NCBI GenBank assembly: GCA_944472155.2
Contig: OX235275.1
Coordinates: forward strand, 28,386,865-28,450,864
Reading direction: 5' to 3'
Length of the DNA stretch: 64,000 bases
DNA from: Trichobilharzia szidati
Taxonomy: Eukaryota > Platyhelminthes > Trematoda > Strigeidida > Schistosomatidae
The translations under genes and the position numbers were made by a program. The notes under the pieces are model-generated. The model did not search any database, was not told where the DNA came from, and saw only the letters and a program-made list of their open reading frames with translations. Positions 7,215 through 64,000 of this stretch are shown here, one piece after another. Every line of letters starts with the position of its first letter. The stretch's first letter is position 1.

Positions 7215-7224
7215 TTTTATCCTT

Positions 7225-11386: not shown

Positions 11387-11389
11387 CTA

Positions 11390-12710
11390 CTCTTATATTA
11401 ATGCCTTTTACTTACTGACTGTTGTTAATATTACTGATGCTTTATTCCATCTCTTATTAATGTCACTTACTCATCATCTTAAATTATTTCACTATCACTA
11501 GTATTGCTACTATAATCATTGTTAGTAGAAGTAGTGATAGTAGTGGCAGCATTATTTGAAGTATTCAGTCTGTTATTCCTGACCTTTCCAATTTCTTTCT
11601 CTGATAAATAACAGTTTACTGTCTATGGTATTTTAGCTCAGCGTAATCCATTATAGCGAAAATATTCATTCAGACATCTATAGAACACAAATTAATTGAG
11701 CAGAAGATATCCCTTTCGATAATTTCCTCTTCTGGCTCCACAATTATATTAGTTTATATGCATAGAATATTCTAGAATAGTAGTCAATAACAATATTATT
11801 GTTTTAATTAATAATATCGATTTGTAAAGTAAGATCAGTGGAATCATAGTTCACTAAAGATGCTTAAATTATAATAATAGTAAAAATATATTAGAAAATA
11901 GAATATCAACTAAAATAAAGGAAATTCCCCGCTGAACATTGCGGATCATTCGAACCTAGATGGCCAAGGTTAGGACAGTGTCTGAACTAGCTTCTTTTAG
12001 ACGCATAAAATAGTCTTCTTAATGTAGATTCCAATGGCTTCAATAACATTTGGAAAACGAACTCTTAAGGAGAAGTTAAGATTTGTTGATATATGGTAGA
12101 TGACTTTGAAAGCCGCCTCATTAACATCAATACTGTTTTCTATATCCAAAAGATGAGATGGAATAGCGCTACGAGTGGATTTTGTTTATCCTTTACTTAA
12201 CCAACCACGCAGGGTGATGTTCGGAAATCCGACGACAAACACGACAGTGTAACTACCTCCTAATTTCAATCTCTCATACCCATTCATCGTTGTCTATCTG
12301 AACTTGACCTGTAAAATATTAACTATTCTGTCATATATATATATATATTTATAACAAGAATAATAAGAAGGTACAATCGTCACTTTCAAAACAGGCCTCT
12401 TCAGACTTTGCAATTTTAAATCCATTAATTTTAGCGTATGCCATCCCACTAATCGCTAATGAGACTTTTAACATATCAGAAAGTGTATTGTGAACAATTG
12501 CAAGATTGCCTAACAGTTGGTTAGTTTTGACCGTCATTTAAAATGTGCATGGCTGATAAGAACATGAAAAATGTTGGACAAATTATTCACTTGTATACAT
12601 TTATATGTATATATATATATAATATCAAAAAATTTAAGATTCAAAAGGCGAGTATTGTCAGTGGTTTAAAGGATAATATGAATGCTACAGAGAATCATAC
12701 CAACAAATGG
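11390..12710 (+). other. Sequence between the retroelement remnant and the array; no gene seen
   Basis: AT-rich intronic-type sequence with (TA)n tracts at about 12333-12350 and 12609-12622. No open frame with splice sites in the required phase was found. A minus-strand GGTTCGAATGATC around 11949-11961 could be a decayed B box but has no supporting context. Confidence 0.4.
12333..12350. repeat. (TA)n microsatellite
   Basis: Alternating TA run about 360 bp left of the array edge. A second short one lies at 12609-12622. Confidence 0.75.
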
Positions 12711-13203
12711 AATTCCCTTCCGTTCCGTTCTGTCAGCTTCCATGACATCACATGCGAATCCGTGCCATTCCATGTGACGCCATTCCATGCTTGAATTCCC
12801 TTTCATGGCTTTGCATTGCAGTGCAATGTATACCATTTCATTTCGTTGGATTGCATTTCCGTTGACATTCACCCCGCCAAACCCAAACACAGACGGTCAC
12901 GATGACAGCCAGAATTATCCATCAACAACCACTCACCCACTCAACAAAATACCACTACCACACACCACAAAACACATACAAATCACACAAACTAACCAAC
13001 TGTCACACAGATCCACCCACCAACACACACACACCCACACACACAGCAACACAATCACACAGACAAGCAAACAAACAATCGAACGCAAGTCGAATTTCAA
13101 TACATAAATCCAAAGCTCCATCGCTAACTCACTCACTCACTCACTCACTCTATCTCTCTCACTCTATCTCACTCTGTCTCTCTTCCCGTCTCTCCCTCCA
13201 CAG
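12711..13203 (+). repeat. Truncated first intron copy marking the array's left edge
   Basis: The array begins at AATTCCCTTCCGTTCCG with the second half of a long-family intron (subtype with CATTCACCCCGCC and GACGGTCACGATGAC), including the (CA)n, the (TCAC)n and the pyrimidine tract that serves as acceptor for exon 1. The first roughly 115 bp of a normal intron copy are absent. The duplication breakpoint therefore lies inside the intron, as expected if a genomic fragment with one exon was amplified. Confidence 0.85.
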
Positions 13204-13299
13204 AAACACAACCAGTCACAGATCAGTCAGAAAGCACTCAGTCGGAAGGCACTGATCAACAGTTGACTACCACGCCTCAATTCGAGTCAACAACACCAG
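13204..13299 (+). CDS. First repeat exon of the array
   Basis: This is the leftmost copy of the 96-nt exon, which receives the splice from the unique N-terminal part. If joined to the exon ending at 8537 or 5778 (both end in A), its first codon is AAA (Lys) instead of the GAA (Glu) made at internal repeat junctions. Sequence is otherwise identical to the majority exon. Confidence 0.8.
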
Positions 13300-16200
13300 G
13301 TCAGTCAATTCCCTTTGATTATGATGATCACTTTTATTTTTATTCACCGAACACCCGCCCTCTGCAATCACATCAGTCCAATCCACCAGCGGTGGAGACC
13401 CGTCCAATTCCCATCCGTTCCGTTCTGTCACCTTCCATGACATCACATGCCATTCCGTGCCATTCCATGTGACGCCATTCCATGACATGCTTTCCCTTGC
13501 AAGGCTTTACATTGCAATGCATTGGATTCCATTTCATTTCATTGCATCGCTTTCCCGAAAAAATCCAACCCGCCAGACAATCACACAGCCGGCCACGATG
13601 ACAGCCAGAATTATCCATCAACAACCACTCACCCACTCAACAAAATACCACTACCACACACCACAAAACACATACAAATCACACAAACTAACCAACTGTC
13701 ACACAGATCCACCCACCAACACACACACACACACACAGCAACACAATCACACAGACAAGCAAACAAACAATCGAACGCAAGTCGAATTTCAATACATAAA
13801 TCCAAGGCTCCATCGCTAACTCACTCACTCTATCTCTCTCACTCTATCTCACTCTGTCTCTCTTCCCGTCTCTCCCTCCACAGAAACACAACCAGTCACA
13901 GATCAGTCAGAAAGCACTCAGTCGGAAGGCACTGATCAACAGTTGACTACCACGCCTCAATTCGAGTCAACAACACCAGGTCAGTCAATTCCCTTTGATT
14001 ATGATGATCACTTTTATTTTTATTCACCGAACACCCGCCCTCTGCAATCACATCAGTCCAATCCACCAGCAGTGGAGACCCGTCCAATTCCCATCCGTTC
14101 CCTTCTGTCACCTTCCATGACATCACATGCCATTCCGTGCCATTCCATGTGACGCCATTCCATGACATGCTTTCCCTTGCAAGGCTTTACATTGCAATGC
14201 ATTGGATTCCATTTCATTTCATTGCATCGCTTTCCCGAAAACATCCAACCCGCCAGACAATCACACAGCCGGCCACGATGACAGCCAGAATTATCCATCA
14301 ACAACCACTCACCCACTCAACAAAATACCACTACCACACACCACAAAACACATACAAATCACACAAACTAACCAACTGTCACACAGATCCACCCACCAAC
14401 ACACACACACACACAGCAACACAATCACACAGACAAGCAAACAAACAATCGAACGCAAGTCGAATTTCAATACATAAATCCAAGGCTCCATCGCTAACTC
14501 ACTCACTCACTCACTCTATCTCTCTCACTCTATCTCACTCTGTCTCTCTTCCCGTCTCTCCCTCCACAGAAACACAACCAGTCACAGATCAGTCAGAAAG
14601 CACTCAGTCGGAAGGCACTGATCAACAGTTGACTACCACGCCTCAATTCGAGTCAACAACACCAGGTCAGTCAATTCCCTTTGATTATGATGATCACTTT
14701 TATTTTTATTCACCGAACACCCGCCCTCTGCAATCACATCAGTCCAATCCACCAGCAGTTGGGACCTGTCCAATTCCCTTCCGTTCCGTTCTGTCACCTT
14801 CCATGACATCACATGCCATTCCGTGCCATTCCATGTGACGCCATTCCATGACACGCTTTCCCTTGCAAGGCTTTACATTGCAATGCATTGGATTCCATTT
14901 CATTTCATTGCATCGCTTTCCCGAAAAAATCCAACCCGCCAGACAATCACACAGCCGGCCACGATGACAGCCAGAATTATCCATCAACAACCACTCACCC
15001 ACTCAACAAAATACCACTACCACACACCACAAAACACATACAAATCACACAAACTAACCAACTGTCACACAGATCCACCCACCAACACACACACACACAC
15101 AGCAACACAATCACACAGACAAGCAAACAAACAATCGAACGCAAGTCGAATTTCAATACATAAATCCAAGGCTCCATCGCTAACTCACTCACTCACTCAC
15201 TCACTCACTCTATCTCTCTCACTCTATCTCACTCTGTCTCTCTTCCCGTCTCTCCCTCCACAGAAACACAACCAGTCACAGATCAGTCAGAAAGCACTCA
15301 GTCGGAAGGCACTGATCAACAGTTGACTACCACGCCTCAATTCGAGTCAACAACACCAGGTCAGTCAATTCCCTTTGATTATGATGATCACTTTTATTTT
15401 TATTCACCGAACACCCGCCCTCTGCAATCACATCAGTCCAATCCACCAGCAGTGGAGTCCCGTCCAGTTCCCTTCCGTTCCGTTCTGTCACCTTCCATGA
15501 CATCACATGCCATTCCGTGCCATTCCATGTGACGCCATTCCATGACACGCTTTCCCTTGCAAGGCTTTACATTGCAATGCATTGGATTCCATTTCATTTC
15601 ATTGCATCGCTTTCCCGAAAAAATCCAACCCGCCAGACAATCACACAGCCGGCCACGATGACAGCCAGAATTATCCATCAACAACCACTCACCCACTCAA
15701 CAAAATACCACTACCACACACCACAAAACACATACAAATCACACAAACTAACCAACTGTCACACAGATCCACCCACCAACACACACACACACACAGCAAC
15801 ACAATCACACAGACAAGCAAACAAACAATCGAACGCAAGTCGAATTTCAATACATAAATCCAAGGCTCCATCGCTAACTCACTCACTCACTCACTCACTC
15901 TATCTCTCTCACTCTATCTCACTCTGTCTCTCTTCCCGTCTCTCCCTCCACAGAAACACAACCAGTCACAGATCAGTCAGAAAGCACTCAGTCGGAAGGC
16001 ACTGATCAACAGTTGACTACCACGCCTCAATTCGAGTCAACAACACCAGGTCAGTCAATTCCCTTTGATTATGATGATCACTTTTATTTTTATTCACCGA
16101 ACACCCGCCCTCTGCAATCACATCAGTCCAATTCACCAGCAGTGGAGACCCGTCCAATTCCCTTCCGTTCCGTTCTGTCACCTTCCATGACATCACATGC

Positions 16201-19200
16201 GAATCCGTGCCAATCCATGTGACGCCATTCCATGCCTTGCATTCCCTTTAATGGCTTTGCATTTCAGTGAAATGTATTCCATTTCATTTCGTTGGATTGC
16301 ATTCCCGTTGGCATTCACCCCGCCAAACCCAAACACAGACGGTCACGATGACAGCCAGAATTATCCATCAACAACCACTCACCCACTCAACAAAATACCA
16401 CTACCACACACCACAAAACACATACAAATCACACAAACTAACCAACTGTCACACAGATCCACCCACCAACACACACACACACACACAGCAACACAATCAC
16501 ACAGACAAGCAAACAAACAATCGAACGCAAGTCGAATTTCAATACATAAATCCAAGGCTCCATCGCTAACTCACTCACTCACTCACTCACTCACTCTATC
16601 TCTCTCACTCTATCTCACTCTGTCTCTCTTCCCGTCTCTCCCTCCACAGAAACACAACCAGTCACAGATCAGTCAGAAAGCACTCAGTCGGAAGGCACTG
16701 ATCAACAGTTGACTACCACGCCTCAATTCGAGTCAACAACACCAGGTCAGTCAATTCCCTTTGATTATGATGATCACTTTTAATTTTATTCACCGAACAC
16801 CCGCCCTCTGCAATCACATCAGTCCAATCCACCAGCAGTGGAGTCCCGTCCAGTTCCCTTCCGGTCCGTTGTGTGACCTTCCATGACATCACATGCGAAT
16901 CCGTGCCAATCCATGTGACGCCATTCCATGCCTTGCATTCCCTTTAATGGCTTTGCATTTCAGTGAAATGTATTCCATTTCATTTCGTTGGATTGCATTC
17001 CCGTTGACATTCACCCCGCCAAACCCAAACACAGACGGTCACGATGACAGCCAGAATTATCCATCAACAACCACTCACCCACTCAACAAAATACCACTAC
17101 CACACACCACAAAACACATACAAATCACACAAACTAACCAACTGTCACACAGATCCACCCACCAACACACACACACACACACAGCAACACAATCACACAG
17201 ACAAGCAAACAAACAATCGAACGCAAGTCGAATTTCAATACATAAATCCAAGGCTCCATCGCTAACTCACTCACTCACTCACTCACTCACTCTATCTCTC
17301 TCACTCTATCTCACTCTGTCTCTCTTCCCGTCTCTCCCTCCACAGAAACACAACCAGTCACAGATCAGTCAGAAAGCACTCAGTCGGAAGGCACTGATCA
17401 GCAGTTGACTACCACGCCTCAATTCGAGTCAACAACACCAGGTCAGTCAATTCCCTTTGATTATGATGATCACTTTTATTTTTATTCACCGAACACCCGC
17501 CCTCTGCAATCACATCAGTCCAATTCACAAGCAGTGGAGTCCCGTCCAGTTCCCTTCCGTTCCGTTCTGTCACCTTCCATGACATCACATGCCATTCCGT
17601 GCCATTCCATGTGACGCCATTCCATGCCATGCTTTCCCTTGCATGGCTTTACATTGCAATGCATTGGATTCCATTTCATTTCATTGCATCGCTTTCCCGA
17701 AAACATCCAACCCGCCAGACAATCACACAGCCGGCCACGATGACAGCCAGAATTATCCATCAACAACCACTCACCCACTCAACAAAATACCACTACCACA
17801 CACCACAAAACACATACAAATCACACAAACTAACCAACTGTCACACAGATCCACCCACCAACACACACACACACACACAGCAACACAATCACACAGACAA
17901 GCAAACAAACAATCGAACGCAAGTCGAATTTCAATACATAAATCAAAAGCTCCATCGCTAACTCACTCACTCACTCACTCACTCTATCTCTCTCACTCTA
18001 TCTCACTCTGTCTCTCTTCCCGTCTCTCCCTCCACAGAAACACAACCAGTCACAGATCAGTCAGAAAGCACTCAGTCGGAAGGCACTGATCAACAGTTGA
18101 CTACCACGCCTCAATTCGAGTCAACAACACCAGGTCAGTCAATTCCCTTTGATTATGATGATCACTTTTATTTTTATTCACCGAACACCCGCCCTCTGCA
18201 ATCACATCAGTCCAATTCACCAGCAGTGGAGACCCGTCCAATTCCCTTCCGTTCCGTTCTGTCAGCTTCCATGACATCACATGCGAATCCGTGCCAATCC
18301 ATGTGACGCCATTCCGTGCCTTGCATTCCCTTTAATGGCTTTGCATTTCAGTGAAATGTGTTCCATTTCATTTCGTTGGATTGCATTTCCGTTGACATTC
18401 ATCCCGCCAAACCCAAACACAGACGGTCACGATGACAGCCAGAATTATCCATCAACAACCACTCACACACTCAACAAAATACGACTACCACACACCACAA
18501 AACACCTACAAATCACACAAACTAACCAACTGTCACACACATCCACCCACCAACACACACACACACACAGCCACACAATCACACAGACAAGCAAACAAAC
18601 AATCGAACGCAAGTCGAATTTCAATACATAAATCGAAAGCTCCATCGCTAACTCACTCACTCACTCACTCACTCTATCTCTCTCACTCTATCTCACTCTG
18701 TCTCTCTTCCCGTCTCTCCCTCCACAGAAACACAACCAGTCACAGATCAGTCAGAAAGCACTCAGTCGGAAGGCACTGATCAACAGTTGACTACCACGCC
18801 TCAATTCGAGTCAACAACACCAGGTCAGTCAATTCCCTTTGATTAAGATGATCACTTTTAATTTTATTCACCGAACACCCGCCCTCTGCAATCACATCAG
18901 TCCAATCCACCAGCAGTGGAGTCCCGTCCAGTTCCCTTCCGGTCCGTTGTGTGACCTTCCATGACATCACATGCCATTCCGTGCCATTCCATGTGACGCC
19001 ATTCCATGCCATGCTTTCCCTTGCATGGCTTTGCATTGCAATGCATTGGATTCCATTTCATTCCATTGCATTGCTTCCCGTAAACATCTACCCCGCCAGA
19101 CAATCACACAGCCGGCCACGATGACAGCCAATATTTTCCATCAACAACCACTCACACACTCAACAAAATACGACTACCACACACCACAAAACACCTACAA

Positions 19201-46200: not shown

Positions 46201-49200
46201 AACAAAATACCACTACCACACACCACAAAACACATACAAATCACACAAACTAACCAACTGTCACACAGATCCACCCACCAACACACACACACACACACAG
46301 CAACACAATCACACAGACAAGCAAACAAACAATCGAACGCAAGTCGAATTTCAATACATAAATCCAAGGCTCCATCGCTAACTCACTCACTCACTCACTC
46401 ACTCTATCTCTCTCACTCTATCTCACTCTGTCTCTCTTCCCGTCTCTCCCTCCACAGAAACACAACCAGTCACAGATCAGTCAGAAAGCACTCAGTCGGA
46501 AGGCACTGATCAACAGTTGACTACCACGCCTCAATTCGAGTCAACAACACCAGGTCAGTCAATTCCCTTTGATTATGATGATCACTTTTATTTTTATTCA
46601 CCGAACACCCGCCCTCTGCAATCACATCAGTCCAATCCACCAGCAGTGGAGTCCCGTCCAATTCCCTTCCGTTCCGTTCTGTCACCTTCCATGACATCAC
46701 ATGCCATTCCGTGCCATTCCATGTGACGCCATTCCATGACATGCTTTCCCTTGCAAGGCTTTACATTGCAATGCATTGGATTCCATTTCATTTCATTGCA
46801 TCGCTTTCCCGAAAACATCCAACCCGCCAGACAATCACACAGCCGGCCACGATGACAGCCAGAATTATCCATCAACAACCACTCACCCACTCAACAAAAT
46901 ACCACTACCACACACCACAAAACACATACAAATCACACAAACTAACCAACTGTCACACAGATCCACCCACCAACACACACACACACACACAGCAACACAA
47001 TCACACAGACAAGCAAACAAACAATCGAACGCAAGTCGAATTTCAATACATAAATCCAAGGCTCCATCGCTAACTCACTCACTCACTCACTCACTCTATC
47101 TCTCTCACTCTATCTCACTCTGTCTCTCTTCCCGTCTCTCCCTCCACAGAAACACAACCAGTCACAGATCAGTCAGAAAGCACTCAGTCGGAAGGCACTG
47201 ATCAACAGTTGACTACCACGCCTCAATTCGAGTCAACAACACCAGGTCAGTCAATTCCCTTTGATTATGATGATCACTTTTTTTTTTATTCACCGAACAC
47301 CCGCCCTCTGCAATCACATCAGTCCAATCCACCAGCGGTGGAGAACCGTCCAATTCCCTTCCGTTCCGTTCTGTCACCTTCCATGACATCACATGCCATT
47401 CCGTGCCATTCCATGTGACGCCATTCCATGACATGATTTCACTTGCATATTTTTCTTTGCAATGAAATTTACTCCATTTCATTTCATTGCATTGCTTTCC
47501 CGTAATCTACCAACCCGCCAGACAATCACACAGCCGGCCACGATGACAGCCAGAATTATCCATCAACAACCACTCACCCACTCAACAAAATACCACTACC
47601 ACACACCACAAAACACATACAAATCACACAAACTAACCAACTGTCACACAGATCCACCCACCAACACACACACACACACACAGCAACACAATCACACAGA
47701 CAAGCAAACAAACAATCGAACGCAAGTCGAATTTCAATACATAAATCCAAGGCTCCATCGCTAACTCACTCACTCACTCTATCTCTCTCACTCTATCTCA
47801 CTCTGTCTCTCTTCCCGTCTCTCCCTCCACAGAAACACAACCAGTCACAGATCAGTCAGAAAGCACTCAGTCGGAAGGCACTGATCAACAGTTGACTACC
47901 ACGCCTCAATTCGAGTCAACAACACCAGGTCAGTCAATTCCCTTTGATTATGATGATCACTTTTATTTTTATTCACCGAACACCCGCCCTCTGCAATCAC
48001 ATCAGTCCAATCCACCAGCGGTGGAGACCCGTCCAATTCCCATCCGTTCCGTTCTGTCACCTTCCATGACATCACATGCCATTCCGTGCCATTCCATGTG
48101 ACGCCATTCCATGACATGCTTTCCCTTGCAAGGCTTTACATTGCAATGCATTGGATTCCATTTCATTTCATTGCATCGCTTTCCCGAAAACATCCAACCC
48201 GCCAGACAATCACACAGCCGGCCACGATGACAGCCAGAATTATCCATCAACAACCACTCACCCACTCAACAAAATACCACTACCACACACCACAAAACAC
48301 ATACAAATCACACAAACTAACCAACTGTCACACAGATCCACCCACCAACACACACACACACAACAGCAACACAATCACACAGACAAGCAAACAAACAATC
48401 GAACGCAAGTCGAATTTCAATACATAAATCCAAGGCTCCATCGCTAACTCACTCACTCACTCACTCACTCTATCTCTCTCACTCTATCTCACTCTGTCTC
48501 TCTTCCCGTCTCTCCCTCCACAGAAACACAACCAGTCACAGATCAGTCAGAAAGCACTCAGTCGGAAGGCACTGATCAACAGTTGACTACCACGCCTCAA
48601 TTCGAGTCAACAACACCAGGTCAGTCAATTCCCTTTGATTATGATGATCACTTTTATTTTTATTCACCGAACACCCGCCCTCTGCAATCACATCAGTCCA
48701 ATCCACCAGCGGTGGAGACCCGTCCAGTTCCCTTCCGTTCCGTTCTGTCACCTTCCATGACATCACATGCCATTCCGTGCCATTCCATGTGACGCCATTC
48801 CATGACATGCTTTCCCTTGCAAGGCTTTACATTGCAATGCATTGGATTCCATTTCATTTCATTGCATCGCTTTCCCGAAAACATCCAACCCGCCAGACAA
48901 TCACACAGCCGGCCACGATGACAGCCAGAATTATCCATCAACAACCACTCACCCACTCAACAAAATACCATTACCACACACCACAAAACACCCAAGCACC
49001 ACCCAAACCAACCTGAAGTAAACCAGTCAGACACACTCACGCACACTCAGACACACAATCACACATACAAGCTATCACACAATCAACCGAAATTCAAATC
49101 TCAATAAATAAATCCAACGCTCCATCGCTCGCTCGCTCGCTCACCCACTCAATCTCTCTTTCTCTCTCTCTCGCTATCTCTCCCTCCCTCCCTCCCTCCC

Positions 49201-52093
49201 ACCACAGAAACACAACCAGTCACAGATCAGTCAGAAAGCACTCAGTCGGAAGGCACTGATCAACAGTTGACTACCACGCCTCAATTCGAGTCAACAACAC
49301 CAGGTCAGTCAATTCCCTTTGATTATGATGATCACTTTTATTTTTATTCACCGAACACCCGCCCTCTGCAATCACATCAGTCCAATCCACCAGCAGTGGA
49401 GACCCGTCCAGTTCCCTTCCGGTCCGTTGTGTGACCTTCCATGACATCACATGCCATTCCGTGCCATTCCATGTGACGCCATTCCATGCCATGCTTTCCC
49501 TTGCATGGCTTTGCATTGCAATGCATTGGATTCCATTTCATTCCATTGCATCGCTTTCCCGAAAACATCCAACCCGCCAGACAATCACACAGCCGGCCAC
49601 GATGACAGCCAATATTATCCATCAACAACCACTCACACACTCAACAAAATACGACTACCACACACCACAAAACACCTACAAATCACACAAACTAACCAAC
49701 TGTCACACAGATCCACCCACCAACACACACACACACACACAGCAACACAATCACACAGACAAGCAAACAAACAATCGAACGCAAGTCGAATTTCAATACA
49801 TAAATCCAAGGCTCCATCGCTAACTCACTCACTCACTCACTCACTCACTCACTCTATCTCTCTCACTCTATCTCACTCTGTCTCTCTTCCCGTCTCTCCC
49901 TCCACAGAAACACAACCAGTCACAGATCAGTCAGAAAGCACTCAGTCCGAAGGCACTGATCAACAGTTGACTACCACGCCTCAATTCGAGTCAACAACAC
50001 CAGGTCAGTCAATTCCCTTTGATTATGATGATCACTTTTATTTTTATTCACCGAACACCCGCCCTCTGCAATCACATCAGTCCAATCCACCAGCGGTGGA
50101 GACCCGTCCAATTCCCATCCGTTCCGTTCTGTCACCTTCCATGACATCACATGCCATTCCGTGCCATTCCATGTGACGCCATTCCATGACATGCTTTCCC
50201 TTGCAAGGCTTTACATTGCAATGCATTGGATTCCATTTCATTTCATTGCATCGCTTTCCCGAAAACATCCAACCCGCCAGACAATCACACAGCCGGCCAC
50301 GATGACAGCCAGAATTATCCATCAACAACCACTCACCCACTCAACAAAATACCACTACCACACACCACAAAACACATACAAATCACACAAACTAACCAAC
50401 TGTCACACAGATCCACCCACCAACACACACACACACACACACAGCAACACAATCACACAGACAAGCAAACAAACAATCGAACGCAAGTCGAATTTCAATA
50501 CATAAATCCAAGGCTCCATCGCTAACTCACTCACTCACTCACTCACTCTATCTCTCTCACTCTATCTCACTCTGTCTCTCTTCCCGTCTCTCCCTCCACA
50601 GAAACACAACCAGTCACAGATCAGTCAGAAAGCACTCAGTCGGAAGGCACTGATCAACAGTTGACTACCACGCCTCAATTCGAGTCAACAACACCAGGTC
50701 AGTCAATTCCCTTTGATTATGATGATCACTTTTATTTTTATTCACCGAACACCCGCCCTCTGCAATCACATCAGTCCAATCCACCAGCGGTGGAGACCCG
50801 TCCAATTCCCTTCCGTTCCGTTCTGTCACCTTCCATGACATCACATGCCATTCCGTGCCATTCCATGTGACGCCATTCCATGACATGATTTCACTTGCAT
50901 AGCTTTTCTTTGCAATGAAATTTACTCCATTTCATTTCATTGCATTGCCTTCCCGTAAACTTCTACCCCGCCAGACAATCACACAGCCGGCCACGATGAC
51001 AGCCAATATTATCCATCAACAACCACTCACACACTCAACAAAATACGACTACCACACACCACAAAACACCTACAAATCACACAAACTAACCAACTGTCAC
51101 ACAGATCCACCCACCAACACACACACACACACACAGCAACACAATCACACAGACAAGCAAACAAACAATCGAACGCAAGTCGAATTTCAATACATAAATC
51201 CAAGGCTCCATCGCTAACTCACTCACTCACTCACTCACTCTATCTCTCTCACTCTATCTCACTCTGTCTCTCTTCCCGTCTCTCCCTCCACAGAAACACA
51301 ACCAGTCACAGATCAGTCAGAAAGCACTCAGTCGGAAGGCACTGATCAACAGTTGACTACCACGCCTCAATTCGAGTCAACAACACCAGGTCAGTCAATT
51401 CCCTTTGATTATGATGATCACTTTTATTTTTATTCACCGAACACCCGCCCTCTGCAATCACATCAGTCCAATCCACCAGCAGTGGAGAACCGTCCAATTC
51501 CCTTCCGTTCCGTTCTGTTTACCTTCCATGACATCACATGCCATTCCGTGCCATTCCATGTGACGCCATTCCATGACATGCTTTCCCTTGCAAGGCTTTA
51601 CATTGCAATGCATTGGTTCCCATTTTATTTCATTGCATCGCCTTCTCGAAAACATCCAACCCGCCAGACAATCACACAGCCGGCCACGATGACAGCCAGA
51701 ATTATCCATCAACAACCACTCACCCACTCAACAAAATACCACTACCACACACCACAAAACACATACAAATCACACAAACTAACCAACTGTCACACAGATC
51801 CACCCACCAACACACACAACACACACACACAGCAACACAATCACACAGACAAGCAAACAAACAATCGAACGCAAGTCGAATTTCAATACATAAATCCAAG
51901 GCTCCATCGCTAACACACTCACTCACTCACTCACGCACTCACTCTATCTCTCTCACTCTATCTCACTCTGTCTCTCTTCCCGTCTCTCCCTCCACAGAAA
52001 CACAACCAGTCACAGATCAGTCAGAAAGCACTCAGTCGGAAGGCACTGATCAACAGTTGACTACCACGCCTCAATTCGAGTCAACAACACCAG
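13204..52093 (+). CDS. Repeat exons 1-57 (96 nt each), mucin-like 32-residue repeats, long-intron block
   Basis: Exons start at 13204, 13884, 14570, 15264, 15954, 16650, 17346, 18038, 18728, 19417, 20109, 20801, 21489, 22181, 22872, 23558, 24250, 24942, 25630, 26326, 27022, 27718, 28414, 29110, 29810, 30500, 31196, 31896, 32582, 33282, 33982, 34670, 35366, 36062, 36758, 37459, 38146, 38842, 39538, 40230, 40922, 41614, 42306, 43002, 43697, 44390, 45078, 45766, 46458, 47150, 47833, 48524, 49208, 49908, 50602, 51294 and 51998, each 96 nt long. All follow CTCCCTCCACAG or a close variant and precede GTCAGT. Only the third frame is open (2 nt + 31 codons + 1 nt); the other two stop inside. The junction codon between copies is GAA. 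Each unit gives 9 Thr, 4 Ser, 6 Gln, 6 acidic residues and 3 Pro, ends TTTPQFESTTP, and has no Lys, Arg or Cys. This composition suits a densely O-glycosylated, extended, acidic secreted or surface mucin-like region (inference). Confidence 0.85.
17346..17441 (+). CDS. Repeat exon 7 with a private synonymous change
   Basis: Codon 18 is CAG instead of CAA (Gln kept). It is the only copy in which I saw this change, so it is a marker for a recent, unspread mutation within the array. Confidence 0.8.
44390..44485 (+). CDS. Repeat exon 46 carrying the short-block TCC marker
   Basis: Codon 13 is TCC, the state typical of the short-intron block, although the flanking introns are of the long family. 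The change is silent (Ser). Together with exon 54 it suggests exchange of exon sequence between the blocks, although a parallel mutation is possible. Confidence 0.8.
48620..49207 (+). repeat. Hybrid intron: long-family 5' half, short-family 3' half
   Basis: The intron after exon 52 is a normal long-family copy up to the shared word CCACACACCACAAAACAC at 48974-48991, then continues as the short family (CCAAGCACCACCC, GAAGTAAACC, AATAAATAAATCCAACGC, GCTCGCTCGCTC). It lies about 2.8 kb inside the long block. The junction falls exactly in sequence common to both families, as expected for homologous recombination. Confidence 0.9.
49908..50003 (+). CDS. Repeat exon 54 carrying the short-block TCC marker
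   Basis: Codon 13 is TCC (silent). The exon is one unit downstream of the hybrid intron, so it may belong to the same exchange tract between the long and short blocks. Confidence 0.8.
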
Positions 52094-55000
52094 GTCAGTC
52101 AATTCATTATGCTTATTATTCTTATTCTTATTATGATTAAGCTTATTCTTATAATTATTCAGCCAACACACGCCCTCTCCAATCACATCAATTCCATCAA
52201 CCAGCAGTGTCCTTCTCTCTCACCTAACTTTACTCGGCTTCACTTGATTCGCTTGACTGCCATTGCAATCGCTTGGCTTCCGTCAACATCCAGCCAGCCA
52301 TTCAGCCAACCAGAAGTCTAGCATCACGCATCAACCACCAGCCACTCAACTCCGCCTACCACACACCACAAAACACCCAAGCACCACCCAAACCAACCTG
52401 AAGTAAACCAGTCAGACACACTCACGCACACTCAGACACACAATCACACAGACAAGCAATCACACAATCAACCGAAATTCAAATCTCAATAAATAAATCC
52501 AACGCTCCATCGCTCGCTCGCTCGCTCACCCACTCAATCTCTCTTTCTCTCTCTCTCGCTATCTCTCCCTCCCTCCGTCCCTCCCTCCACAGAAACACAA
52601 CCAGTCACAGATCAGTCAGAAAGCACTCAGTCCGAAGGCACTGATCAACAGTTGACTACCACGCCTCAATTCGAGTCAACAACACCAGGTCAGTCAATTC
52701 ATTATGCTTATTATTCTTATTCTTATTATGATTAAGCTTATTCTTATAATTATTCAGCCAACACACGCCCTCTCCAATCACATCAATTCCATCAACCAGC
52801 AGTGTCCTTCTCTCTCACCTAACTTTACTCGGCTTCACTTGATTCGCTTGACTGCCATTGCAATCGCTTGGCTTCCGTCAACATCCAGCCAGCCATTCAG
52901 CCAACCAGAAGTCTAGCATCACGCATCAACCACCAGCCACTCAACTCCGCCTACCACACACCACAAAACACCCAAGCACCACCCAAACCAACCTGAAGTA
53001 AACCAGTCAGACACACTCACGCACACTCAGACACACAATCACACAGACAAGCAATCACACAATCAACCGAAATTCAAATCTCAATAAATAAATCCAACGC
53101 TCCATCGCTCGCTCGCTCGCTCACCCACTCAATCTCTCTCTCTCTCTCGCTATCTCTCCCTCCCTCCGTCCCCCCCTCCTCAGAAACACAACCAGTCACA
53201 GATCAGTCAGAAAGCACTCAGTCGGAAGGCACTGATCAACAGTTGACTACCACGCCTCAATTCGAGTCAACAACACCAGGTCAGTCAATTCATTATGCTT
53301 ATTATTCTTATTCTTATTATGATTAAGCTTATTCTTATAATTATTCGGCCAACACACGCCCTCTCCAATCACATCAATTCCATCAACCAGCAGTGTCCTT
53401 CTCTCTCACCTAACTTTACTCGGCTTCACTTGATTCGCTTGACTGCCATTGCAATCGCTTGGCTTCCGTCAACATCCAGCCAGCCATTCAGCCAACCAGA
53501 AGTCTAGCATCACGCATCAACCACCAGCCACTCAACTCCGCCTACCACACACCACAAAACACCCAAGCACCACCCAAACCAACCTGAAGTAAACCAGTCA
53601 GACACACTCACGCACACTCAGACACACAATCACACAGACAAGCAATCACACAATCAACCGAAATTCAAATCTCAATAAATAAATCCAACGCTCCATCGCT
53701 CGCTCGCTCGCTCACCCACTCAATCTCTCTCTCTCTCTCTCCCGCTATCTCTCCCTCCCTCCGTCCCTCCCTCCACAGAAACACAACCAGTCACAGATCA
53801 GTCAGAAAGCACTCAGTCCGAAGGCACTGATCAACAGTTGACTACCACGCCTCAATTCGAGTCAACAACACCAGGTCAGTCAATTCATTATGCTTATTAT
53901 TCTTATTCTTATTATGATTAAGCTTATTCTTATAATTATTCAGCCAACACACGCCCTCTCCAATCACATCAATTCCATCAACCAGCAGTGTCCTTCTCTC
54001 TCACCTAACTTTACTCGGCTTCACTTGATTCGCTTGACTGCCATTGCAATCGCTTGGCTTCCGTCAACATCCAGCCAGCCATTCAGCCAACCAGAAGTCT
54101 AGCATCACGCATCAACCACCAGCCACTCAACTCCGCCTACCACACACCACAAAACACCCAAGCACCACCCAAACCAACCTGAAGTAAACCAGTCAGACAC
54201 ACTCACGCACACTCAGACACACAATCACACAGACAAGCAATCACACAATCAACCGAAATTCAAATCTCAATAAATAAATCCAACGCTCCATCGCTCGCTC
54301 GCTCGCTCACCCACTCAATCTCTCTCTCTCTCTCCCGCTATCTCTCCCTCCCTCCGTCCCTCCCTCCACAGAAACACAACCAGTCACAGATCAGTCAGAA
54401 AGCACTCAGTCCGAAGGCACTGATCAACAGTTGACTACCACGCCTCAATTCGAGTCAACAACACCAGGTCAGTCAATTCATTATGCTTATTATTCTTATT
54501 CTTATTATGATTAAGCTTATTCTTATAATTATTCAGCCAACACACGCCCTCTCCAATCACATCAATTCCATCAACCAGCAGTGTCCTTCTCTCTCACCTA
54601 ACTTTACTCGGCTTCACTTGATTCGCTTGACTGCCATTGCAATCGCTTGGCTTCCGTCAACATCCAGCCAGCCATTCAGCCAACCAGAAGTCTAGCATCA
54701 CGCATCAACCACCAGCCACTCAACTCCGCCTACCACACACCACAAAACACCCAAGCACCACCCAAACCAACCTGAAGTAAACCAGTCAGACACACTCACG
54801 CACACTCAGACACACAATCACACAGACAAGCAATCACACAATCAACCGAAATTCAAATCTCAATAAATAAATCCAACGCTCCATCGCTCGCTCGCTCGCT
54901 CACCCACTCAATCTCTCTCTCTCTCTCTCCCGCTATCTCTCCCTCCCTCCGTCCCTCCCTCCACAGAAACACAACCAGTCACAGATCAGTCAGAAAGCAC

Positions 55001-58000
55001 TCAGTCCGAAGGCACTGATCAACAGTTGACTACCACGCCTCAATTCGAGTCAACAACACCAGGTCAGTCAATTCATTATGCTTATTATTCTTATCTGATT
55101 ATGATTAAGCTTATTCTTATAATTATTCAGCCAACACACGCCCTCTCCAATCACATCAATTCCATCAACCAGCAGTGTCCTTCTCTCTCACCTAACTTTA
55201 CTCGGCTTCACTTGATTCGCTTGACTGCCATTGCAATCGCTTGGCTTCCGTCAACATCCAGCCAGCCATTCAGCCAACCAGAAGTCTAGCATCATGCACC
55301 AACCACCAGCCACTCATCTCAGCCCACCACACACCACAAAACACCCAAGCACCACCCAAACCAACCTGAAGTAAACCAGTCAGACACACTCACGCACACT
55401 CAGACACACAATCACACAGACAAGCAATCACACAATCAACCGAAATTCAAATCTCAATAAATAAATCCAACGCTCCATCGCTCGCTCGCTCGCTCACCCA
55501 CTCAATCTCTCTCTCTCTCTCCCGCTATCTCTCCCTCCCTCCGTCCCCCCCTCCACAGAAACACAACCAGTCACAGATCAGTCAGAAAGCACTCAGCCGG
55601 AAGGCACTGATCAACAGTTGACTACCACGCCTCAATTCGAGTCAACAACACCAGGTCAGTCAATTCATTATGCTTATTATTCTTATTCTTATTATGATTA
55701 AGCTTATTCTTATAATTATTCAGCCAACACACGCCCTCTCCAATCACATCAATTCCATCAACCAGCAGTGTCCTTCTCTCTCACCTAACTTTACTCGGCT
55801 TCACTTGATTCGCTTGACTGCCATTGCAATCGCTTGGCTTCCGTCAACATCCAGCCAGCCATTCAGCCAACCAGAAGTCTAGCATCACGCATCAACCACC
55901 AGCCACTCAACTCCGCCTACCACACACCACAAAACACCCAAGCACCACCCAAACCAACCTGAAGTAAACCAGTCAGACACACTCACGCACACTCAGACAC
56001 ACAATCACACAGACAAGCAATCACACAATCAACCGAAATTCAAATCTCAATAAATAAATCCAACGCTCCATCGCTCGCTCGCTCGCTCACCCACTCAATC
56101 TCTCTCTCTCTCTCGCTATCTCTCCCTCCCTCCCTCCGTCCCTCCCTCCACAGAAACACAACCAGTCACAGATCAGTCAGAAAGCACTCAGTCCGAAGGC
56201 ACTGATCAACAGTTGACTACCACGCCTCAATTCGAGTCAACAACACCAGGTCAGTCAATTCATTATGCTTATTATTCTTATTCTTATTATGATTAAGCTT
56301 ATTCTTATAATTATTCAGCCAACACACGCCCTCTCCAATCACATCAATTCCATCAACCAGCAGTGTCCTTCTCTCTCACCTAACTTTACTCGGCTTCACT
56401 TGATTCGCTTGACTGCCATTGCGATCGCTTGGCTTCCGTCAACATCCAGCCAGCCATTCAGCCAACCAGAAGTCTAGCATCACGCATCAACCACCAGCCA
56501 CTCAACTCCGCCTACCACACACCACAAAACACCCAAGCACCACCCAAACTAACCTGAAGTAAACCAGTCAGACACACTCACGCACACTCAGACACACAAT
56601 CACACAGACAAGCAATCACACAATCAACCGAAATTCAAATCTCAATAAATAAATCCAACGCTCCATCGCTCGCTCGCTCGCTCACCCACTCAATCTCTCT
56701 CTCTCTCCCGCTATCTCTCCCTCCCTCCGTCCCTCCCTCCACAGAAACACAACCAGTCACAGATCAGTCAGAAAGCACTCAGTCCGAAGGCACTGATCAA
56801 CAGTTGACTACCACGCCTCAATTCGAGTCAACAACACCAGGTCAGTCAATTCATTATGCTTATTATTCTTATTCTTATTATGATTAAGCTTATTCTTATA
56901 ATTATTCAGCCAACACACGCCCTCTCCAATCACATCAATTCCATCAACCAGCAGTGTCCTTCTCTCTCACCTAACTTTACTCGGCTTCACTTGATTCGCT
57001 TGACTGCCATTGCAATCGCTTGGCTTCCGTCAACATCCAGCCAGCCATTCAGCCAACCAGAAGAACAGCATCATGCACCAACCACCAGCCACTCATCTCA
57101 GCCTACCACACACCACAAAACACCCAAGCACCACCCAAACTAACCTGAAGTAAACCAGTCAGACACACTCACGCACACTCAGACACACAATCACACAGAC
57201 AAGCAATCACACAATCAACCGAAATTCAAATCTCAATAAATAAATCCAACGCTCCATCGCTCGCTCGCTCGCTCACCCACTCAATCTCTCTCTCTCTCTC
57301 CCGCTATCTCTCCCTCCCTCCGTCCCTCCCTCCACAGAAACACAACCAGTCACAGATCAGTCAGAAAGCACTCAGTCCGAAGGCACTGATCAACAGTTGA
57401 CTACCACGCCTCAATTCGAGTCAACAACACCAGGTCAGTCAATTCATTATGCTTATTATTCTTATTCTTATTATGATTAAGCTTATTCTTATAATTATTG
57501 AGCCAACACACGCCCTCTCCAATCACATCAATTCCATCAACCAGCAGTGTCCTTCTCTCTCACCTAACTTTACTCGGCTTCACTTGATTCGCTTGACTGC
57601 CATTGCAATCGCTTGGCTTCCGTCAACATCCAGCCAGCCATTCAGCCAACCAGAAGTCTAGCATCACGCATCAACCACCAGCCACTCAACTCCGCCTACC
57701 ACACACCACAAAACACCCAAGCACCACCCAAACCAACCTGAAGTAAACCAGTCAGACACACTCACGCACACTCAGACACACAATCACACAGACAAGCAAT
57801 CACACAATCAACCGAAATTCAAATCTCAATAAATAAATCCAACGCTCCATCGCTCGCTCGCTCGCTCACCCACTCAATCTCTCTTTCTCTCTCTCTCTCG
57901 CTATCTCTCCCTCCCTCCCTCCGTCCCTCCCTCCACAGAAACACAACCAGTCACAGATCAGTCAGAAAGCACTCAGTCCGAAGGCACTGATCAACAGTTG

Positions 58001-61000
58001 ACTACCACGCCTCAATTCGAGTCAACAACACCAGGTCAGTCAATTCATTATGCTTATTATTCTTATTCTTATTATGATTAAGCTTATTCTTATAATTATT
58101 CAGCCAACACACGCCCTCTCCAATCACATCAATTCCATCAACCAGCAGTGTCCTTCTCTCTCACCTAACTTTACTCGGCTTCACTTGATTCGCTTGACTG
58201 CCATTGCAATCGCTTGGCTTCCGTCAACATCCAGCCAGCCATTCAGCCAACCAGAAGTCTAGCATCACGCATCAACCACCAGCCACTCAACTCCGCCTAC
58301 CACACACCACAAAACACCCAAGCACCACCCAAACCCACCTGAAGTAAACCAGTCAGACACACTCACGCACACTCAGACACACAATCACACAGACAAGCAA
58401 TCACACAATCAACCGAAATTCAAATCTCAATAAATAAATCCAACGCTCCATCGCTCGCTCGCTCGCTCACCCACTCAATCTCTCTTTCTCTCTCTCTCCC
58501 GCTATCTCTCCCTCCCTCCGTCCCTCCCTCCACAGAAACACAACCAGTCACAGATCAGTCAGAAAGCACTCAGTCCGAAGGCACTGATCAACAGTTGACT
58601 ACCACGCCTCAATTCGAGTCAACAACACCAGGTCAGTCAATTCATTATGCTTATTATTCTTATTCTTATTATGATTAAGCTTATTCTTATAATTATTCAG
58701 CCAACACACGCCCTCTCCAATCACATCAATTCCATCAACCAGCAGTGTCCTTCTCTCTCACCTAACTTTACTCGGCTTCACTTGATTCGCTTGACTGCCA
58801 TTGCAATCGCTTGGCTTCCGTCAACATCCAGCCAGCCATTCAGCCAACCAGAAGTCTAGCATCATGCACCAACCACCAGCCACTCATCTCAGCCTACCAC
58901 ACACCACAAAACACCCAAGCACCACCCAAACCAACCTGAAGTAAACCAGTCAGACACACTCACGCACACTCAGACACACAATCACACAGACAAGCAATCA
59001 CACAATCAACCGAAATTCAAATCTCAATAAATAAATCCAACGCTCCATCGCTCGCTCGCTCGCTCACCCACTCAATCTCTCTTTCTCTCTCTCCCGCTAT
59101 CTCTCCCTCCCTCCGTCCCTCCCTCCACAGAAACACAACCAGTCACAGATCAGTCAGAAAGCACTCAGTCCGAAGGCACTGATCAACAGTTGACTACCAC
59201 GCCTCAATTCGAGTCAACAACACCAGGTCAGTCAATTCATTATGCTTATTATTCTTATTCTTATTATGATTAAGCTTATTCTTATAATTATTCAGCCAAC
59301 ACACGCCCTCTCCAATCACATCAATTCCATCAACCAGCAGTGTCCTTCTCTCTCACCTAACTTTACTCGGCTTCACTTGATTCGCTTGACTGCCATTGCA
59401 ATCGCTTGGCTTCCGTCAACATCCAGCCAGCCATTCAGCCAACCAGAAGAACAGCATCACGCATCAACCACCAGCCACTCAACTCCGCCTACCACACACC
59501 ACAAAACACCCAAGCACCACCCAAACCAACCTGAAGTAAACCAGTCAGACACACTCACGCACACTCAGACACACAATCACACAGACAAGCAATCACACAA
59601 TCAACCGAAATTCAAATCTCAATAAATAAATCCAACGCTCCATCGCTCGCTCGCTCGCTCACCCACTCAATCTCTCTTTCTCTCTCTCCCGCTATCTCTC
59701 CCTCCCTCCGTCCCCCCCTCCACAGAAACACAACCAGTCACAGATCAGTCAGAAAGCACTCAGTCGGAAGGCACTGATCAACAGTTGACTACCACGCCTC
59801 AATTCGAGTCAACAACACCAGGTCAGTCAATTCATTATGCTTATTATTCTTATTCTTATTATGATTAAGCTTATTCTTATAATTATTCAGCCAACACACG
59901 CCCTCTCCAATCACATCAATTCCATCAACCAGCAGTGTCCTTCTCTCTCACCTAACTTTACTCGGCTTCACTTGATTCGCTTGACTGCCATTGCAATCGC
60001 TTGGCTTCCGTCAACATCCAGCCAGCCATTCAGCCAACCAGAAGTCTAGCATCACGCATCAACCACCAGCCACTCAACTCCGCCTACCACACACCACAAA
60101 ACACCCAAGCACCACCCAAACTAACCTGAAGTAAACCAGTCAGACACACTCACGCACACTCAGACACACAATCACACAGACAAGCAATCACACAATCAAC
60201 CGAAATTCAAATCTCAATAAATAAATCCAACGCTCCATCGCTCGCTCGCTCGCTCACCCACTCAATCTCTCTTCTCTCTCTCTCTCGCTATCTCCTCCCT
60301 CCCTCCGTCCCTCCCTCCACAGAAACACAACCAGTCACAGATCAGTCAGAAAGCACTCAGTCCGAAGGCACTGATCAACAGTTGACTACCACGCCTCAAT
60401 TCGAGTCAACAACACCAGGTCAGTCAATTCATTATGCTTATTATTCTTATTCTTATTATGATTAAGCTTATTCTTATAATTATTCAGCCAACACACGCCC
60501 TCTCCAATCACATCAATTCCATCAACCAGCAGTGTCCTTCTCTCTCACCTAACTTTACTCGGCTTCACTTGATTCGCTTGACTGCCATTGCAATCGCTTG
60601 GCTTCCGTCAACATCCAGCCAGCCATTCAGCCAACCAGAAGTCTAGCATCACGCATCAACCACCAGCCACTCAACTCCGCCTACCACACACCACAAAACA
60701 CCCAAGCACCACCCAAACCAACCTGAAGTAAACCAGTCAGACACACTCACGCACACTCAGACACACAATCACACAGACAAGCAATCACACAATCAACCGA
60801 AATTCAAATCTCAATAAATAAATCCAACGCTCCATCGCTCGCTCGCTCGCTCACCCACTCAATCTCTCTTTCTCTCTCTCTCGCTATCTCTCCCTCCCTC
60901 CGTCCCTCCCTCCACAGAAACACAACCAGTCACAGATCAGTCAGAAAGCACTCAGTCCGAAGGCACTGATCAACAGTTGACTACCACGCCTCAATTCGAG

Positions 61001-63900
61001 TCAACAACACCAGGTCAGTCAATTCATTATGCTTATTATTCTTATTCTTATTATGATTAAGCTTATTCTTATAATTATTCAGCCAACACACGCCCTCTCC
61101 AATCACATCAATTCCATCAACCAGCAGTGTCCTTCTCTCTCACCTAACTTTACTCGGCTTCACTTGATTCGCTTGACTGCCATTGCAATCGCTTGGCTTC
61201 CGTCAACATCCAGCCAGCCATTCAGCCAACCAGAAGTCTAGCATCACGCATCAACCACCAGCCACTCAACTCCGCCTACCACACACCACAAAACACCCAA
61301 GCACCACCCAAACCCACCTGAAGTAAACCAGTCAGACACACTCACGCACACTCAGACACACAATCACACAGACAAGCAATCACACAATCAACCGAAATTC
61401 AAATCTCAATAAATAAATCCAACGCTCCATCGCTCGCTCGCTCGCTCACCCACTCAATCTCTCTTTCTCTCTCTCTCTCGCTATCTCTCCCTCCCTCCGT
61501 CCCTCCCTCCACAGAAACACAACCAGTCACAGATCAGTCAGAAAGCACTCAGTCCGAAGGCACTGATCAACAGTTGACTACCACGCCTCAATTCGAGTCA
61601 ACAACACCAGGTCAGTCAATTCATTATGCTTATTATTCTTATTCTTATTATGATTAAGCTTATTCTTATAATTATTCAGCCAACACACGCCCTCTCCAAT
61701 CACATCAATTCCATCAACCAGCAGTGTCCTTCTCTCTCACCTAACTTTACTCGGCTTCACTTGATTCGCTTGACTGCCATTGCAATCGCTTGGCTTCCGT
61801 CAACATCCAGCCAGCCATTCAGCCAACCAGAAGTCTAGCATCACGCATCAACCACCAGCCACTCAACTCCGCCTACCACACACCACAAAACACCCAAGCA
61901 CCACCCAAACCAACCTGAAGTAAACCAGTCAGACACACTCACGCACACTCAGACACACAATCACACAGACAAGCAATCACACAATCAACCGAAATTCAAA
62001 TCTCAATAAATAAATCCAACGCTCCATCGCTCGCTCGCTCGCTCACCCACTCAATCTCTCTTTCTCTCTCTCTCCCGCTATCTCTCCCTCCCTCCGTCCC
62101 TCCCTCCACAGAAACACAACCAGTCACAGATCAGTCAGAAAGCACTCAGTCCGAAGGCACTGATCAACAGTTGACTACCACGCCTCAATTCGAGTCAACA
62201 ACACCAGGTCAGTCAATTCATTATGCTTATTATTCTTATTCTTATTATGATTAAGCTTATTCTTATAATTATTCAGCCAACACACGCCCTCTCCAATCAC
62301 ATCAATTCCATCAACCAGCAGTGTCCTTCTCTCTCACCTAACTTTACTCGGCTTCACTTGATTCGCTTGACTGCCATTGCAATCGCTTGGCTTCCGTCAA
62401 CATCCAGCCAGCCATTCAGCCAACCAGAAGTCTAGCATCACGCATCAACCACCAGCCACTCAACTCCGCCTACCACACACCACAAAACACCCAAGCACCA
62501 CCCAAACCAACCTGAAGTAAACCAGTCAGACACACTCACGCACACTCAGACACACAATCACACAGACAAGCAATCACACAATCAACCGAAATTCAAATCT
62601 CAATAAATAAATCCAACGCTCCATCGCTCGCTCGCTCGCTCACCCACTCAATCTCTCTTTCTCTCTCTCTCTCGCTATCTCTCCCTCCCTCCGTCCCTCC
62701 CTCCACAGAAACACAACCAGTCACAGATCAGTCAGAAAGCACTCAGTCCGAAGGCACTGATCAACAGTTGACTACCACGCCTCAATTCGAGTCAACAACA
62801 CCAGGTCAGTCAATTCATTATGCTTATTATTCTTATTCTTATTATGATTAAGCTTATTCTTATAATTATTCAGCCAACACACGCCCTCTCCAATCACATC
62901 AATTCCATCAACCAGCAGTGTCCTTCTCTCTCACCTAACTTTACTCGGCTTCACTTGATTCGCTTGACTGCCATTGCAATCGCTTGGCTTCCGTCAACAT
63001 CCAGCCAGCCATTCAGCCAACCAGAAGTCTAGCATCACGCATCAACCACCAGCCACTCAACTCCGCCTACCACACACCACAAAACACCCAAGCACCACCC
63101 AAACCAACCTGAAGTAAACCAGTCAGACACACTCACGCACACTCAGACACACAATCACACAGACAAGCAATCACACAATCAACCGAAATTCAAATCTCAA
63201 TAAATAAATCCAACGCTCCATCGCTCGCTCGCTCGCTCACCCACTCAATCTCTCTTTCTCTCTCTCTCGCGCTATCTCTCCCTCCCTCCGTCCCTCCCTC
63301 CACAGAAACACAACCAGTCACAGATCAGTCAGAAAGCACTCAGTCGGAAGGCACTGATCAACAGTTGACTACCACGCCTCAATTCGAGTCAACAACACCA
63401 GGTCAGTCAATTCATTATGCTTATTATTCTTATTCTTATTATGATTAAGCTTATTCTTATAATTATTCAGCCAACACACGCCCTCTCCAATCACATCAAT
63501 TCCATCAACCAGCAGTGTCCTTCTCTCTCACCTAACTTTACTCGGCTTCACTTGATTCGCTTGACTGCCATTGCAATCGCTTGGCTTCCGTCAACATCCA
63601 GCCAGCCATTCAGCCAACCAGAAGTCTAGCATCACGCATCAACCACCAGCCACTCAACTCCGCCTACCACACACCACAAAACACCCAAGCACCACCCAAA
63701 CTAACCTGAAGTAAATCAGTCAGACACACTCACGCACACTCAGACACACAATCACACAGACAAGCAATCACACAATCAACCGAAATTCAAATCTCAATAA
63801 ATAAATCCAACGCTCCATCGCTCGCTCGCTCGCTCACCCACTCAATCTCTCTTTCTCTCTCTCTCGCTATCTCTCCCTCCCTCCGTCCCTCCCTCCACAG
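52094..63900 (+). repeat. Short-family introns (20 copies, 495-505 bp)
   Basis: These begin GTCAGTCAATTCATTATGC with a TTATTCTTATTCTTATTATG segment, and continue with CAACACACGCCCTCTCCAATC, a pyrimidine-rich middle, a CA-rich block and AATAAATAAATCCAACGC. They end in (GCTC)n and a CT-rich tract finishing CCCTCCACAG. Homology to the long family is clear in CGCCCTCTxCAATCACATCA, CCACACACCACAAAACAC and AAATCCAAxGCTCCATCGCT, but much of the rest is diverged or absent. Confidence 0.9.
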
Positions 63901-63996
63901 AAACACAACCAGTCACAGATCAGTCAGAAAGCACTCAGTCCGAAGGCACTGATCAACAGTTGACTACCACGCCTCAATTCGAGTCAACAACACCAG
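52593..63996 (+). CDS. Repeat exons 58-77 (96 nt each), short-intron block
   Basis: Exons start at 52593, 53184, 53779, 54372, 54967, 55559, 56154, 56745, 57338, 57939, 58536, 59131, 59726, 60323, 60918, 61515, 62112, 62709, 63306 and 63901, each 96 nt. They encode the same 32-residue repeat as exons 1-57, although the introns between them belong to a different, diverged family. The only exon differences seen are at codon 13. TCC is found in 16 copies, TCG in exons 59, 70 and 76 (as in most of the long block), and CCG in exon 63, the one amino-acid change. Acceptors vary slightly (exon 59 has CCTCCTCAG) but AG is always kept, and all donors are GTCAGT. The phase 1-1 structure makes any set of exons joinable. 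Confidence 0.85.
55559..55654 (+). CDS. Repeat exon 63, the only copy with an amino-acid change
   Basis: Codon 13 reads CCG, giving Pro where all other copies have Ser (TCG or TCC). It is the single non-synonymous difference I found among 77 exons. The frame and both splice sites are unaffected. Confidence 0.8.
63901..63996 (+). CDS. Last visible repeat exon (77), array continues
   Basis: A complete 96-nt copy with TCC at codon 13. Its donor GTCA fills the last four bases of the window, so the downstream intron, any further repeats and the C-terminal exons lie outside. Confidence 0.85.
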
Positions 63997-64000
63997 GTCA

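Follow-up and report, generated by a model that had tools for sequence, protein, structure and literature searches.

What does an unbroken run of near-identical short exons encode, and what keeps the exons alike while the introns between them diverge? The question is raised by a stretch of 64,000 nucleotides (nt) from the bird schistosome Trichobilharzia szidati (GenBank assembly GCA_944472155.2, contig OX235275.1, positions 28,386,865 to 28,450,864 of the forward strand), called the window below, most of which is filled by 96-nt exons that form, with their introns, a tandem array. We think it probable that this array encodes the stalk of a secreted-type, membrane-anchored, Thr/Ser/Pro-rich T. 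szidati protein, in which each phase 1-1 exon supplies one repeat.

An earlier reading of the stretch from its letters alone (the sequence-only reading) had claimed at least 77 tandem 96-nt copies, none broken, each preceded by a pyrimidine tract plus CAG and followed by GTCAGT, with a single open frame, phases 1-1 and at least 2,464 residues. These claims hold in all their parts. Scanning the window with the first copy as the template, we found 77 copies between 13204 and 63996, a minimum count because the array continues past the window end:

12711 to 64000, plus strand: tandem array of 96-nt exons and introns (left edge from the sequence-only reading, with likeness to the unit visible there; leaves the window)
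13204 to 13299, plus strand: first array exon (template scan; scores as a good internal exon)
63901 to 63996, plus strand: last array exon inside the window (template scan)
Starts of array exons 1 to 38, plus strand (template scan): 13204 13884 14570 15264 15954 16650 17346 18038 18728 19417 20109 20801 21489 22181 22872 23558 24250 24942 25630 26326 27022 27718 28414 29110 29810 30500 31196 31896 32582 33282 33982 34670 35366 36062 36758 37459 38146 38842
Starts of array exons 39 to 77, plus strand (template scan): 39538 40230 40922 41614 42306 43002 43697 44390 45078 45766 46458 47150 47833 48524 49208 49908 50602 51294 51998 52593 53184 53779 54372 54967 55559 56154 56745 57338 57939 58536 59131 59726 60323 60918 61515 62112 62709 63306 63901

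Measured against the reference copy, 57 of the 77 exons are identical and 20 carry one substitution, with no indel in any. The acceptor CAG and the donor GT are present in 77/77 copies, the donor reading GTCAGT in 76 (copy 77 is clipped by the window end), and the pyrimidine fraction over the 20 nt ahead of the acceptor is 0.9. Only three exon sites vary, with the codons read by hand: offset 40 (G/C, 18 copies, silent), offset 55 (A/G, one copy, silent), and offset 38 (T/C, one copy, Ser to Pro); the same residues are encoded by 76 of the 77 copies. When the copies are joined, one of the six frames is open, in phase 1-1, with the translation E-TQPVTDQSESTQSEGTDQQLTTTPQFESTTP, and 77 repeats of 32 residues give 2,464 residues as a lower limit. 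Unit lengths modulo 3 are random (28/24/24 of 76), with the exon constant at 96 nt. An unspliced coding repeat running through whole units was rejected, given that the introns (495 to 608 nt) place an in-frame stop in the way of read-through in 76 of 76 cases and that the longest stop-to-stop frame right of 12600 spans 276 codons. The repeat is rich in Thr, Ser, Pro, Gln, and Glu, lacks Cys and Asn, and has Thr, Ser, or Pro at 16 of its 32 positions; with 77 such copies in tandem, its composition agrees with the mucin-like product proposed earlier, if mucin-like is taken to mean tandem repeats rich in Ser/Thr/Pro.

Ahead of the array lies a chain of exons, found by eye and by a splice-site scan, whose phases are consistent throughout:

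52 to 280, plus strand: coding exon, 229 nt, phase 0 to 1 (AG/GTAAGT borders; translation inside P0003)
1515 to 1532, plus strand: symmetric micro-exon, 18 nt, 1-1, DIISFE (splice-site scan; in P0003)
3152 to 3172, plus strand: symmetric micro-exon, 21 nt, 1-1, KPQNFEK (top-scoring exon candidate upstream of the array; in P0003)
4415 to 4476, plus strand: exon, 62 nt, phase 1 to 0, donor GTTAGT (weak donor score, -0.4; in P0003)
5580 to 5778, plus strand: exon, 199 nt, phase 0 to 1, joinable in frame to an array exon (splice-site scan; in P0003)
7865 to 7887, plus strand: probable source of the P0003 tail SIIFTRL (the only plus-strand site in the window that fits the tail pattern after AG)

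Joined, the five exons occur verbatim in P0003, an annotated T. szidati protein of 474 residues from a 68.6-Mb contig, which has a hydrophobic stretch at its start and the C-terminal end KSKNLLPSIIFTRL. The array is a supported candidate for the continuation of the upstream gene encoding P0003. A sixth exon candidate (3546 to 3578, 33 nt, score 7.9) was dropped as it is absent from P0003. Pfam returned no family for three of the upstream exons taken singly or for the joined 177 residues, and the best match among solved structures, a designed TPR protein (E 0.049), was not used. Between the chain and the array, the minus strand carries fragments at 6621 to 7846 resembling a GIY-YIG endonuclease (Pfam E 0.095) and a reverse transcriptase (E 0.049), as in Penelope-like retroelements, the Pfam matches being below the cut-off; a second fragment, at 10334 to 11386 on the minus strand, has a GIY-YIG-like stretch (Pfam E 0.057, likewise below the cut-off).

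The sequence-only reading had further held that the symmetric exon is coding and had proposed searching proteomes for the 32-residue repeat. The search recovered the repeat in seven proteins, joined at the predicted borders, and every match was to Trichobilharzia, as were all 11 proteins found; the protein searches reach relatives that share short exact words with the query, and in the profile search scoring was confined to the 8000 candidates with the most words in common. One counterpart is P0001, a T. szidati paralogue of 571 residues from a 68.6-Mb contig, as is P0003, and presumably in the same chromosome. Its N-terminal part is as in P0003 and is followed by two 32-residue repeats and a hydrophobic C-terminal helix, an architecture shared by P0002 of T. 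regenti (peak hydropathy of the tail in a 19-residue Kyte-Doolittle window, 2.61 and 2.56, respectively). As P0001 and P0002 run through two copies into the C-terminal helix, the repeat appears to be already modelled as spliced coding sequence in relatives. P0005 of T. regenti has the same kind of tail and four repeats, one standing singly and the others in a run of three. In this protein, the repeat module takes turns with a domain of about 100 residues that is itself duplicated, an arrangement that looks like a joint shuffling of repeat and domain exons.

A second family also carries the repeat, at two to nine copies per protein. A profile search with four tiled repeat variants recovered, besides P0005, P0008, and P0009, two further proteins. 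P0010 of T. regenti has nine diverged 32-residue repeats, alike except for the residue that opens copy 1, and P0011 of T. szidati, from a third contig, has three identical repeats. P0008, P0009, and P0011 have a C-terminal part in common with P0010 (56 to 66% identity), and BLASTP gave no match below E 3 between the part after the repeats in P0008 to P0011 and the N-terminal part of P0001. Since these parts are unrelated, one module serves two protein families, on at least three T. szidati contigs, and stands in the otherwise unrelated P0001/P0002/P0005 and P0008 to P0011.

The seven proteins together hold 24 repeats, and neighboring pairs are exactly 32 residues apart in 16 of 16 cases. Each of the eight repeat runs has K, Q, or E (N|AA) as its first residue, and each is followed by D (G|AY), the latter judged by eye and the codons read by hand. 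Borders of this kind probably reflect phase 1-1 exons with G as their last base, the relatives being judged by their border residues; the runs are partly homologous and so do not amount to eight independent cases. Compared between genes, the repeats have 19 to 32 of the 32 residues of the window repeat, a divergence greater than that within one gene: the copies of P0008 and of P0009 show one difference, and one of the four copies in P0005 differs at one residue.

On the basis of these observations, the upstream exons of the window would encode the end of an N-terminal ectodomain, as in P0003, and the exon at 5580 to 5778, which ends in phase 1, would be joined in frame to the first of at least 77 array exons, each adding one 32-residue repeat. 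If P0001 and the T. regenti protein P0002 are a guide, an exon beyond position 64000 would then supply a transmembrane helix as the end of the protein. Stalk length would be set by copy number, with two repeats in P0001 and at least 77 (2,464 residues) here. The symmetry of each copy means that any number of copies can be deleted, duplicated, or skipped with the frame intact; unequal exchange could alter the length of the array in this way, and skipping that of the mRNA. We infer, as parts of this model, transcription through the array, the joining of most copies, O-glycosylation, an anchor at this locus, and the fate of the RNA.

A further set of observations concerns what has been conserved. 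The array falls into two parts according to the class of its introns:

13204 to 51997, plus strand: long-class part, exons 1 to 56 and the introns after them (unit lengths 680 to 704 bp, class consensus; intron after exon 52 mosaic)
52094 to 63900, plus strand: short-class part, introns after exons 57 to 76 with exons 58 to 76 (unit lengths 591 to 601 bp)
48620 to 49207, plus strand: mosaic intron, 5' end long-class and 3' end short-class (downstream flank of exon 52 long-class, upstream flank of exon 53 short-class)

Between the consensus introns of the two classes, 134 of 478 aligned bases differ (28%), with a further 139 gap columns, whereas the consensus exons differ at one of 96 positions, silently. 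Even the least different of 522 intron windows of 96 columns, with gaps counted as differences, has 15 differences between the classes. Over 76 units, pi is 0.0042 for the exon and 0.105 for the intron. Within each class the contrast is smaller than between classes: in units 1 to 51 the variable columns number 2 of 96 in the exon and 85 of 592 in the intron, and in units 58 to 76 they number 2 of 96 and 23 of 497, respectively. Because intron classes 28% apart and separated by indels flank exons with a single silent difference, the conserved element is the exon and not the whole unit.

Several points weigh against a giant stalk. The gene model of P0003 ends before the array, and, as its tail fits only 7865 to 7887 on the plus strand, it stops short of it. 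The ~7.4 kb from 5778 to 13204 hold no exon candidate with both splice sites above 1.5 and a sum above 6.5, and two retroelement-like fragments lie between the exon at 5580 to 5778 and the first array exon. The exon at 4415 to 4476, with its donor score of -0.4, would itself fail this filter, so that weak exons may exist in the gap. The splice-site scan of positions 1 to 12711 gave, at a high threshold, four candidates against two on the reverse strand (40 shuffles: mean 0.4, maximum 3) and, at a low threshold, five against seven (shuffle mean 3.5), with no excess. Taken alone, the scan is weak evidence, and it is P0003 that independently confirms the exon chain. As for the relatives, their gene models are predictions, and a single search for longer repeat proteins (546 to 1736 residues, E up to 1e-3) found only P0001. 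The two repeat copies differ at 5 of 32 residues in P0001 and at 4 of 32 in P0002, and strict uniformity of the repeat is not a rule of the family. A P0003 model without the array and a lone long match in P0001 are what gene predictors would be expected to produce on repeats, and equally what would be expected of a silent array.

Among the other explanations, we give tentative credence to the array being a generator of isoforms, in which each mRNA would take one or a few interchangeable exons to yield products of varying length, with no single giant product. The frame neutrality of the copies fits this idea, as do the mere two to nine repeats of the relatives as modelled, and excerpts of PMC2576457 describe tandem copies of exon 2 together with variable transcripts for the polymorphic mucins (SmPoMuc) of Schistosoma mansoni. 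Yet nearly all copies (76/77) encode the same residues, so that choice among them would change little but length. Intron RNA structure as a splicing device was tried and rejected, the one intron that was folded having no notable structure (z 0.18). The hydrophobic C-terminal helix in which the relatives end makes the stalk at least as good an account as isoform generation.

It is possible, although we are more doubtful of it, that uniformity is kept not by selection on the protein but by homogenization at the scale of the exon, with exons being copied among units apart from their introns by short-tract or RNA-templated conversion. Silent sites are depleted too: between classes, ~22 synonymous sites show one change, compared with 28% of intron bases (binomial P 0.007; Fisher P 0.013), a depletion that rests on one variable site. 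In exons 46 and 54 the base is the one typical of the short class, with long-class flanks on both sides, and in exon 76 a long-class base lies between short-class flanks; the nearest class-specific bases limit the exchanged tract to ~120 nt. These are, however, few sites with one shared variant, for which recurrent mutation is possible; exons 59, 63, and 70 show the same base pattern as exon 76 plus a common linked flank variant, so that their base may be by descent; and splicing signals inside the exon would spare silent sites as well. The sparing of silent sites may point to exon-scale exchange or exon-internal splicing signals, besides constraint on the protein. Neither such exchange nor the selective use of exons is exclusive of a giant stalk, with which both are compatible.

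We consider improbable, and disfavor, a silent satellite-like expansion, in which the functional gene ended in a few repeat exons and an unexpressed or truncated copy grew by unequal exchange. The end of the P0003 model ahead of the array would suit such a history, and the high intron identity in units 1 to 51 (mean 0.978 between neighbors, 0.967 at 30 units apart, and 0.953 at 40) is satellite-like. Conservation, however, is exon-specific: neutral expansion does not account for uniform exons across the two diverged intron classes, for the lack of exon indels against many in introns, or for splice borders intact in all 77 copies. Equally unlikely in our view is the broader idea of the 96-nt exon as a coding module that moves and multiplies by itself within Trichobilharzia, which would have entered at least two unrelated secreted-protein families, would multiply in each, and would stay near-uniform by exon-scale copying, possibly from spliced RNA, while introns drift, with this locus as the largest array seen so far. 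Inflation of the copy number by the assembly is very improbable, for although arrays of this kind are hard to assemble and one intron sequence occurs seven times, the 76 introns comprise 65 distinct sequences in two ordered classes with a mosaic intron, unlike a simple assembly loop.

The nearest parallels to the array are other repeat-exon genes of schistosomes. The excerpted text of PMC2576457 describes SmPoMuc genes with a 27-bp exon 2 in units of 1022 to 1037 bp, up to about 20 copies, and an intronic part that is >94% identical. The likeness is that of a schistosome mucin gene with a short exon and flanking introns in tandem next to microsatellites, near-identical units, and concerted evolution (PMC2576457, same excerpts). 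The present array departs from the SmPoMuc sizes and copy numbers, with a 96-nt exon, 591- to 704-bp units, and at least 77 copies, the two being compared by description, and its introns form two classes (28% apart, with indels) around a uniform exon. In SmPoMuc, a hammerhead ribozyme also lies in the intron that separates exons 9 and 10; in the 64-kb window, Rfam returned no match at the gathering score, the 3' part of the gene lying outside. Sm10.3 (MEG-4) is cited, from Davis et al. 1988 by way of a citation and a review passage (PMC10526429, PMC4015677), as having tandemly repeated 81-base exons, which makes it alike in being a schistosome gene with tandem repeat exons and different in repeat size (81 bases versus 96 nt), again by description only. 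By analogy, the locus may work like SmPoMuc genes, as a variant of the schistosome repeat-exon genes SmPoMuc and Sm10.3.

Schistosome micro-exon genes (MEGs) are made of exons of 3 to 81 bp, according to PMC10526429. With its two symmetric micro-exons of 18 and 21 nt, the present gene, for a secreted-type protein, recalls them, but the other upstream exons measure 62 to 229 nt and the array exons 96 nt; of the five upstream exons in the window (229, 18, 21, 62, and 199 nt), three are within 81 nt. Judged by exon size, the gene does not belong to the MEGs. Outside schistosomes, the human LPA gene offers a parallel whose kringle IV-2 repeats are folded kringle domains. Its units of 5.6 kb number 1 to 40 per allele (passage of PMC11462820), and it resembles the present locus as a protein-coding tandem repeat array, in LPA with unit number varying between alleles; it differs in being human and in the size and folded nature of its units, as against 591 to 704 bp here. 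In modular spider silk genes, as related in excerpts of PMC2576457, exon-intron units likewise evolve in concert, with introns more homogenized than exons; here the reverse is seen, the exons being more uniform than the introns.

In the titles and abstract openings of the papers listed by searches of an open-licence library, we found no description of the array or of the 32-residue module. The P0003 gene model lacks the array, so that this bird schistosome may have a large surface-type protein that is unannotated. To our knowledge, the array would be among the largest of one repeat exon. As its exons are uniform across diverged introns, it is a natural case in which protein constraint and exon-scale gene conversion can be tested cleanly against each other, and the presence of the 32-residue module in two protein families suggests that exons have been shuffled and repeats have grown in number within Trichobilharzia.

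Pfam searches with P0001, P0002, P0003, P0005, and P0008 to P0011 returned only matches below the curated cut-offs, which were not used, among them P0003 to GPW_gp25 (E 0.00023, 21.4 bits versus 27.2) and P0005 to DUF7188 (E 6.3e-6, 26.5 versus 27). P0010 is named "DUF148 domain-containing" in UniRef, and the Pfam search listed no DUF148 in it. Finally, there is a marked strand asymmetry across the array, with a GC skew of -0.47 to -0.55 per 2 kb over positions 14001 to 64000, compared with -0.07 to 0.17 over positions 1 to 12000.

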